Below the pieces are notes generated by a model. It ran no database searches, was not told where the DNA came from, and saw nothing but the letters and a program-made list of their open reading frames with translations. DNA of 64,000 nt from Thermoproteota archaeon. Its GTDB lineage: Archaea > Thermoproteota > Methanomethylicia > Methanomethylicales > Methanomethylicaceae. The stretch is taken from assembly GCA_029887795.1 (NCBI GenBank), contig JARXPE010000001.1, forward strand, positions 65,386 to 129,385, in the 5' to 3' direction. This document shows positions 59,065 through 61,350 of the stretch, one piece after another; position 1 is the stretch's first letter; every line of letters begins with the position of its first letter. The translations under genes and the position numbers were made by a program.

Positions 59065-59817
59065 CTAATTTGTATGACTTGAATTTTGGCTGCAGACCGG
59101 ACAGTTTAGATTTCTTTTTATGGTGATCTCTTGGAAACTCATATCCGCACCATCGTAGACCAGGAGTCGTCCCACCGCAGGGGTTCCTATTCCAGTAATC
59201 AGTTTTATCGCCTCAGTGGCTTCAAGACATCCCATCACGCCCGGAGTTGTCCCTAGGACGGGGAACTGTTCTGGCTTTGGAGGTTCGCCGGGGTACATGC
59301 ATTTTAAACATGGACCTTTATGGGGAATTATCGTCATGAGGTACCCCTCCATCCCGTAGACTGCGGCATAGATGTATGGTACTTTGTTTTTTACAGCAAA
59401 TTCGTTGATGATCATGCGCGTCTGGAGGTTGTCCTGCCCGTCCACGATTATGTCGATTCCCTCCATCAGATCCTCGATGTTTTCTCCTGTAATTTTTTCA
59501 TTTATAGCATCAATACGCACGTTCGGGTTAAGGAGCGAGAGTTTCATTGCGGCGGATTCGACCTTCGGTCGATCTATGTCGTTGCTCCAATGTAAGATCT
59601 GCCTGTTAAGGTTTGAGAGTTCGACAACATCGCAGTCTATGAGACGCAGATACCCTACACCCGCGGCTGCAAGATAAAATGATGCAGGACTCCCAAGACC
59701 GCCTATCCCAGCGACCGCAACCTTGGCAGAAAATAATTTTTTCTGACCCTCCAATCCAAACCCACGAAGCATCATCTGACGGCTGTACCTGACGAGTTCA
59801 CGATCCCCTAGTTCCAT
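59065..59817 (-). CDS. E1-like ThiF/MoeB/UbaA family adenylyltransferase
   Basis: VAGIGGLGSPASFYLAAAGVG, DxxNLQTR, CLKCMYPG and CPVCS Zn-site cysteines. Confidence 0.95.
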   Translation of the reverse strand: MELGDRELVRYSRQMMLRGFGLEGQKKLFSAKVAVAGIGGLGSPASFYLAAAGVGYLRLIDCDVVELSNLNRQILHWSNDIDRPKVESAAMKLSLLNPNVRIDAINEKITGENIEDLMEGIDIIVDGQDNLQTRMIINEFAVKNKVPYIYAAVYGMEGYLMTIIPHKGPCLKCMYPGEPPKPEQFPVLGTTPGVMGCLEATEAIKLITGIGTPAVGRLLVYDGADMSFQEITIKRNLNCPVCSQNSSHTN

Positions 59818-59849: not shown

Positions 59850-59862
59850 AAATAAATATTTA
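59850..59862 (+). promoter_or_regulatory. putative TATA box of tRNA-Cys transcription unit
   Basis: AAATAAATATTTA about 25-30 nt before the tRNA 5' end. Confidence 0.5.
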
Positions 59863-59884
59863 CACTCCCAGAATTTGAGGGTAA

Positions 59885-59960
59885 GCCAGGGTGGCCGAGC
59901 GGTTTAGGCGGCGGGCTGCAGACCCGCTACACTGGGGTTCGAATCCTCACCCTGGCTCCA
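59885..59960 (+). tRNA. tRNA-Cys (GCA anticodon), U73 discriminator, CCA encoded
   Basis: GCCAGGG/CCCTGGC acceptor, GCGGG-CTGCAGA-CCCGC anticodon arm, TGGGG-TTCGAAT-CCTCA T arm, TCCA 3' end. Confidence 0.95.
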
Positions 59961-59971
59961 TCGGTGATTAT

Positions 59972-60148
59972 ATGGGAATGAGTTCTGAACTGAAGGAGAC
60001 TATTGGAGAACTGATCAAAATTTTGAATGTGCTAAGAAAAACCTCTCCAAACCATCAAATGGGTGATGGTCAAAAAGAAGAGGTCATCAGGGCGTTGGAC
60101 AGTGCAAGGAGACGACTGGAAAAATTGAGAGAAGGGATAACCACATGA
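59972..60148 (+). CDS. 58-aa helical protein of unknown function, coupled to SepCysS
   Basis: MGMSSELKETIGELIKILNVLRKTSPNHQMGDGQKEEVIRALDSARRRLEKLREGITT; ATGA overlap with the next gene; the listed longer ORF runs into the tRNA. Confidence 0.65.
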   Translation: MGMSSELKETIGELIKILNVLRKTSPNHQMGDGQKEEVIRALDSARRRLEKLREGITT

Positions 60149-61350
60149 AAATACCGAAGGAAAGACTCGAAAAATACAAAGGGCTAAAGAGAGACTTTGC
60201 GGAGGAAGACTACATAAACCTCCAACCCATACAGCGCGGAGGGATTCTCACAGAAGAGGCTATGAGAGCCATTTTGGAATTCGGGGACGGTTATTCAACG
60301 TGCGATTGGTGCCCCCCAAAGACCGCAAGGCTCGATATGATAACAAATCCACCCATCCAAGATTTTTACAAGGATCTTGCAGAGTTCTTGGGTATGGATG
60401 TCGCAAGGGTGGTGACCAGATGCAGAGAGGCGAAGTTCATAGCATTTAGGATGCTTGGTAGACCAGGAGATTATATAGTGCTGGACAGCACGGCTCATTA
60501 TTCGAGTTATATCGCAGCCGAACTGGCCGATATGAAGATCAAAGAAGTGCCGAACAGTGGTCCTCCGGAATTCAGGGTTGATTTAAACGAGTATGCCACA
60601 AAGATCGAAGAAGTTAAAAAAGAGAGTGGGAAACTCCCAGCAGCCGTGCTTTTGACTCATGTGGACTACCTGTATGGCAATTTAAACGATGCAAAAATTG
60701 TCAGTAAGATATCAAAGGAATACGGCGTACCTTTTATATTGAATTGTGCCTACACCGCGGGCATAATGCCAGTCGACGGTAGGGAGCTTGGGGCTGATAT
60801 AATAACTAGCAGTGGACACAAGAGTTGGGCAGCTAGCGCCCCAACAGGGATACTTGCCTTCAACAAATCGTTGGAAGAGAAACTTACGGTCCGTTCAAAG
60901 ATAGAGGGAGACCTAACAAAGAGAAGGTTTGGTGCTAAGGAACTTGCCATGCTTGGCTGCACGGTAATGGGGGCTCCCCTTATCACACTGATGGCATCGT
61001 TCCCCGAAGTTGTGAGCAGAGTAGAGAGGTGGGGGGAGGAGCTCGAGAAGGTCAGGTACCTTGTATCCGAGCTGGAGAGGATTGAAGGCGTGAAGCAGCT
61101 AGGGATCAGACCTAAGATGCACACATTAACGCATATGGAGACGGAGGGTTTCTACAAAGTCTCTCAGACGCACAAAAGAAAGGGATACTTCTTATACGAT
61201 GAACTGAGAGAGAGAAAGATTGTAGGGATACAGCCAGGGTTGACGAAGCACTTTAAGTTCAATACCTATGGGTTGACATGGGACCAAATAAGGTATGTCA
61301 GGGATGCCTTCTTTGATATAGCCAAAAAGTATGGATTGAATGTATGTTGA
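60145..61350 (+). CDS. pscS: O-phosphoseryl-tRNA:Cys-tRNA synthase (SepCysS)
   Basis: LQPIQRGGILTEEAMRAILEFGDGYSTCDWC, SSGHKSWAASAPTGILAF PLP-Lys region. Confidence 0.93.
   Translation: MKIPKERLEKYKGLKRDFAEEDYINLQPIQRGGILTEEAMRAILEFGDGYSTCDWCPPKTARLDMITNPPIQDFYKDLAEFLGMDVARVVTRCREAKFIAFRMLGRPGDYIVLDSTAHYSSYIAAELADMKIKEVPNSGPPEFRVDLNEYATKIEEVKKESGKLPAAVLLTHVDYLYGNLNDAKIVSKISKEYGVPFILNCAYTAGIMPVDGRELGADIITSSGHKSWAASAPTGILAFNKSLEEKLTVRSKIEGDLTKRRFGAKELAMLGCTVMGAPLITLMASFPEVVSRVERWGEELEKVRYLVSELERIEGVKQLGIRPKMHTLTHMETEGFYKVSQTHKRKGYFLYDELRERKIVGIQPGLTKHFKFNTYGLTWDQIRYVRDAFFDIAKKYGLNVC

Follow-up and report, generated by a model that had tools for sequence, protein, structure and literature searches.

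Does a tRNA gene that stands directly ahead of the enzyme acting on that same tRNA share its transcript with that enzyme, and could trimming of the tRNA also create the start of the enzyme's mRNA? The question is raised by a locus in the window (the whole stretch of DNA analysed, 64,000 nucleotides; G000:C1:65386-129385) of a 1.25-Mb archaeal genome, in which tRNA-Cys(GCA) is followed by a short open reading frame (ORF) and then by the gene for SepCysS. The window genome belongs to the Methanomethylicaceae (Methanomethylicota/Verstraetearchaeota), a family of uncultured archaea that metabolize methane, and among named archaea it stands closest to Candidatus Methanomethyliaceae/Methanomethylicales (formerly Verstraetearchaeota). 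The features of the locus are as follows.

59065-59817, minus strand: E1/MoeB-like gene, upstream neighbour on the strand opposite to the tRNA-Cys unit
59850-59859, plus strand: TATA-like box AAATAAATAT, with TAAATA at -32 from tRNA-Cys; the only conserved promoter position
59885-59960, plus strand: tRNA-Cys(GCA), called by ARAGORN; discriminator U73, encoded CCA at 59958-59960
59961-59971, plus strand: 11-nt junction TCGGTGATTAT, with an SD-like GGTGAT at 59963-59968; RNase Z cut predicted after 59960
59972-60148, plus strand: SepCysSn, 58 codons, TGA at 60146-60148; profile match to the SepCysE N-terminal domain
60145-61350, plus strand: SepCysS (Sep-tRNA:Cys-tRNA synthase), 401 aa; ATGA overlap with SepCysSn; TIGR02539
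61357-62031, minus strand: PHP-domain gene, downstream neighbour on the strand opposite to the tRNA-Cys unit

An earlier note, drawn up from the letters of this DNA, had ended tRNA-Cys(GCA) at 59960, begun a 58-aa ORF at 59972, 11 nt past the tRNA, begun SepCysS inside the stop codon of that ORF and seen a TATA-like box ahead of the tRNA only. These readings all stand: ARAGORN and the CCA read in the sequence agree on the tRNA end, the first in-frame ATG is that at 59972, the ATG at 60145 and the TGA at 60146-60148 form the ATGA overlap, and AAATAAATAT is present while no TATA-like hexamer lies between tRNA-Cys and SepCysS in the window genome. The name given to the enzyme gene is likewise borne out. 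Its product matches TIGR02539 over its full length (residues 20-396) at 507.9 bits, above the cut-off of 365.25 (E=1.5e-152), and aligns to the Methanocaldococcus jannaschii enzyme structure 3wkr_A at E=2.5e-122, with the PLP lysine (MJ Lys234, SGHKS) conserved. In the loop that reads U73, R345-G346-F347 of PMC5688128 are replaced by K-G-Y, and G364 is kept.

The 58-aa ORF by itself gave only weak Pfam matches, among them DUF2100/PF09873, the family of MJ1481 (SepCysE), below the gathering score. A profile built from 19 relatives (15 Methanomethylicaceae and 4 others) matched residues 49-97 of MJ1481 (3wks_C, E=4.2e-7; 3wkr_C, E=1.8e-6), and DUF2100/PF09873 was matched in 9/19 members; phiKZ_IP, TBCA_PH and HrpB1 were rejected as identities, their matches being below cut-off and absent from relatives. 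In the SepCysE structures, the SepCysS dimer is bound by an N-terminal domain spanning residues 35-101, SepRS by residues 1-24 and tRNA-Cys by residues 111-213 (PMC5688128). Since the profile match falls inside the SepCysS-binding domain, and the ORF stands directly before SepCysS, we identify it by homology as SepCysSn, a homologue of that domain, using the name given by Mukai et al. 2017 (PMC5424206). At 58 aa it is no full-length SepCysE, lacking both the SepRS-binding N-helix and the C-terminal tRNA-binding domain. With a dN/dS of 0.09-0.45 between related species, SepCysSn is a real protein gene under purifying selection.

Synteny in relatives had been proposed as a check on the linkage, and the arrangement proved to be conserved throughout the family. 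Among 22 family genomes searched, 19 from seven genera have a complete SepCysS gene (the remaining three genomes are 59-77% complete), and in 19/19 tRNA-Cys lies directly upstream on the same strand, 178-207 nt ahead of SepCysS, as in a tRNACys-SepCysSn-SepCysS cluster. The junction is also the same in every case: the tRNA, then T, TC or TT, GGTGAT, a few nucleotides and ATG, with a gap of 10-12 nt from tRNA to ATG. CCA is encoded in 18 of these 19 tRNA-Cys copies, and the one in G006 has TCA in its place, so that RNase Z would be expected to cut 3 nt further upstream. SepCysSn varies from 56 to 61 aa, and in 15/19 genomes its overlap with SepCysS is 4 nt. The block E1/MoeB-like (minus), tRNA-SepCysSn-SepCysS (plus), PHP (minus), TrpRS (plus) is identical in the eight long loci, so that genes of opposite orientation flank the unit on both sides. 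SepRS is unlinked (G000:C36:14691-16238) and stands beside Translin/TRAX, endonuclease V and a Taw1-like gene, an arrangement already published for the group (PMC8762117).

Within the window genome the junction has no counterpart. Among 30 tRNA loci, only the operon tRNA-Cys directly abuts an ATG-initiated ORF with a Shine-Dalgarno (SD)-like motif; many others enter T-rich sequence, and the starts near tRNA-Gly and near an intron tRNA with wrongly set boundaries are TTG codons without SD support. Because the layout is conserved in 19/19 genomes and no other examined tRNA locus of the genome resembles it, chance origin can be excluded. Pairing of GGTGAT with the anti-SD of 16S rRNA is assumed from archaea in general; in our search for the 16S 3' end, the two matches to GGATCACCTCAT lie in other sequence and GGCTGGATCACCTCC has no match in 31 genomes, so the rRNA end may be absent from these genome sequences. 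A crude comparison of SD motifs gave an uninformative 9/19 for operon-internal genes vs 11/32 for first genes, and a separate SD-enrichment test on the window had very few GGTGAT sites to draw on. Pairing of the SD with TCACC of the tRNA (acceptor/T region) was considered as a conserved switch and set aside, being possible in the window genus and not in several others.

Among the loci compared, the tight tRNA/SD junction was not seen outside Methanomethylicaceae. In the sister-family genome G022, tRNA-Cys lies 168 nt upstream of SepCysS, without an SD or a recognizable SepCysSn. SepCysSn is present but the tRNA is missing in two f3 genomes, no tRNA lies upstream of SepCysS in the f5 genome, and in five f6 genomes the gene directly ahead of SepCysS reads in translation as CBS-like. 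Three Bathyarchaeia/Methylarchaceae-like loci (L048-L050) carry tRNA-Cys followed by SepCysSn-SepCysS, with a spacer of 66-85 nt that holds a TATA-like sequence, in contrast to the promoterless 10-12 nt of Methanomethylicaceae. The tRNA-Cys contains an intron in two of them: without introns, ARAGORN calls L048:2624-2716 and L050:2620-2712 tRNA-Ser and tRNA-Leu, and with an 18-nt intron allowed both become tRNA-Cys. As a separate observation, SepCysS of L039 (DYFS01000001.1, labelled Candidatus Hadarchaeum) is 72% identical to that of Methanomethylicaceae, and some 2 kb downstream of it a tRNA-Cys lies on the opposite strand; this may reflect horizontal transfer or misbinning.

These distributions bear on the alternative that survives best, to which we give close to even chances, namely that the gene order is that of an inherited or mobile cassette whose shared transcript would serve co-expression and mean nothing more for regulation. 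Synteny extends over the whole locus in the family, so descent alone could hold the order; the cluster is met again, with another spacer, in Bathyarchaeia-like genomes; Mukai et al. (PMC5424206) suggest that it is amenable to horizontal transfer; and the window genome has a second tRNA-Cys. However, descent leaves unexplained why CCA-T-GGTGAT-ATG is kept within 10-12 nt in seven genera when the ORF next to it differs, in the pairs compared, at 13-68% of its synonymous sites.

Whether tRNA and enzyme share a transcript depends on where the promoter lies. A TAAATA box begins 30-34 nt ahead of tRNA-Cys in 19/19 family genomes, whereas between tRNA-Cys and SepCysS a TATA-like hexamer is absent in 13/19 and occurs at scattered positions in the other six. 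We relied on this positional conservation, as a promoter matrix obtained by Gibbs sampling upstream of 25 other tRNAs of the window genome could not tell the operon box apart from AT-rich sites in the ORF: the operon box scores below most tRNA promoters, and AT-rich sites inside SepCysSn sometimes score as high. The matrix thus still allows a weak internal start for SepCysS. That the main SepCysSn/SepCysS promoter lies inside the tRNA or the SepCysSn ORF, with the tRNA transcribed mostly alone, we nevertheless consider unlikely. Some family members do have such high-scoring AT-rich stretches, and the spacer of the Bathyarchaeia-type cluster does contain a TATA-like sequence, but in Methanomethylicaceae no internal site has a conserved position. 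Moreover, 10-12 nt leave no room for an archaeal promoter, and if transcription began in the gap, its TATA box would have to sit within the GC-rich T arm of tRNA-Cys, which makes one promoter and one transcript the simplest explanation. That tRNA-Cys and SepCysS would share a transcript, as the earlier note has it, thus gains strong support at the sequence level, with a single conserved promoter position and a 10-12 nt gap that is nearly all SD in seven genera.

Under the one-promoter explanation, a single promoter about 30 nt upstream of tRNA-Cys would drive a transcript of tRNA-Cys, SepCysSn and SepCysS. RNase P would trim the 5' end of the tRNA, and RNase Z would then cut directly behind the encoded CCA or one nucleotide further on, releasing mature tRNA-Cys and a two-gene mRNA together, the mRNA beginning 0-2 nt before the GGUGAU SD. 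SepCysSn would be translated from this SD and SepCysS by termination-reinitiation at the ATGA overlap. By analogy with the N-terminal domain of SepCysE in M. jannaschii, SepCysSn may bind the SepCysS dimer, and SepCysS would turn Sep-tRNA-Cys, the product of the unlinked SepRS, into Cys-tRNA-Cys. The order of the processing steps follows published enzymology: the two archaeal RNase Zs described require the mature tRNA 5' end first, and on pre-tRNAs that contain CCA they cleave right behind it (90% and 70%) or else 1 nt further (PMC7479834). Given this preference, it is a good inference that tRNA processing sets the 5' end of the mRNA, the start of the enzyme message then probably being a product of tRNA trimming. 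From the observed anatomy, conservation and homologies we infer co-transcription, the cut site, coupled translation and SepCysSn binding, and taken as a whole this explanation appears likely. A literature search turned up no paper reporting transcription of the tRNACys-SepCysSn-SepCysS cluster.

A stronger form can be advanced only tentatively, since we think it possible rather than probable. In Methanomethylicaceae, 3' maturation of tRNA-Cys might be the obligatory 5'-end-forming step for the SepCysSn-SepCysS mRNA, so that each transcript would yield one tRNA and one mRNA and the rate of processing would set enzyme synthesis. The least probable alternative, that ribosomes use the unprocessed fusion and the 30S subunit at the SD competes with RNase Z at the CCA, so that enzyme would be made mainly when tRNA maturation is slow (a negative feedback), draws on an SD that begins 1-2 nt from the CCA, such that both machines would have to share nucleotides, but we think it improbable, as a single fold of the tRNA/SD junction is no more stable than shuffles, supporting no special structure, and the cut mRNA retains a full SD, sufficient for translation.

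A second tRNA-Cys is present in the window genome and one congener (G000 and G002), 97-100% identical to the operon copy over 73 nt, without CCA and with its own upstream sequence. Of these two, the window-genome copy (L120:9895-9967) reads GCA, differs from the operon copy at two T-arm bases and has its own AT-rich box upstream. The search of every other family genome that has the locus yielded the operon copy alone. The linkage of tRNA-Cys and enzyme levels proposed in the earlier note is plausible, with the qualification that the window genome and its congener carry a second, independently promoted tRNA-Cys. In genus g6 (G008, G012), one tRNA-Cys was detected and no CysRS was found over cut-off, and all Cys-tRNA would depend on the operon transcript.

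The second copy has a further feature of its own. A perfect palindrome, TTATGACNNNGTCATAA, is found a single time in each of G000, G002 and G015 (3/26 genomes; the reversed control is unmatched in those three), in the loci L120:9047-9991 (G000:C1:148046-148991), L121 (G002:C77) and L163/L169 (G015:C39). In G000 and G002 it stands just upstream of the second tRNA-Cys, followed by a gene with a tRNA-Thr editing domain (tRNA-Thr_ED) and an HTH gene; in G015, from another genus, it immediately precedes a cysteine synthase gene, behind which comes an HTH gene 48% identical to that of G000/G002. The HTH protein and TTATGACNNNGTCATAA are thus a candidate repressor and operator for cysteine genes.

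The locus would offer a clean and conserved example, found in nature, of a tRNA that has to arise from one RNA together with the enzyme pair modifying its amino acid, with 3' processing of the tRNA defining the 5' end of the mRNA. Its parts have known relatives. In the SepCysE/transsulfursome of M. jannaschii (PMC5688128; PDB 3wkr, 3wks, 5x6b, 5x6c), SepCysE residues 49-97, in the part binding the SepCysS dimer, align with SepCysSn, whereas the helix that binds SepRS and the domain that binds tRNA have no equivalent here. The tRNACys-SepCysSn-SepCysS cluster itself is already published, in Bathyarchaeota; the earlier note had recognized neither this precedent nor the 58-aa ORF as SepCysSn. Mukai et al. 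(2017; PMC5424206) describe a compact tRNACys-SepCysSn-SepCysS-SepRS operon in Bathyarchaeota BA2 and state that clade VII SepCysS genes often adjoin tRNACys; in BA2 and marine sediment archaea the three genes, among them the homologue of the SepCysE N-terminal domain, agree with those described here in order and orientation, whereas in the window genome SepRS is unlinked. Set beside that cluster as described there, without its exact spacings, what is added here is an invariant, tight and promoterless tRNA/SD junction across one family, together with a prediction on how the mRNA 5' end is formed. In pylTSBCD of Methanosarcinales (PMC2933860), a tRNA gene likewise leads a cluster of enzymes serving that same tRNA, although the tRNA, the enzymes and the amino acid are different ones.
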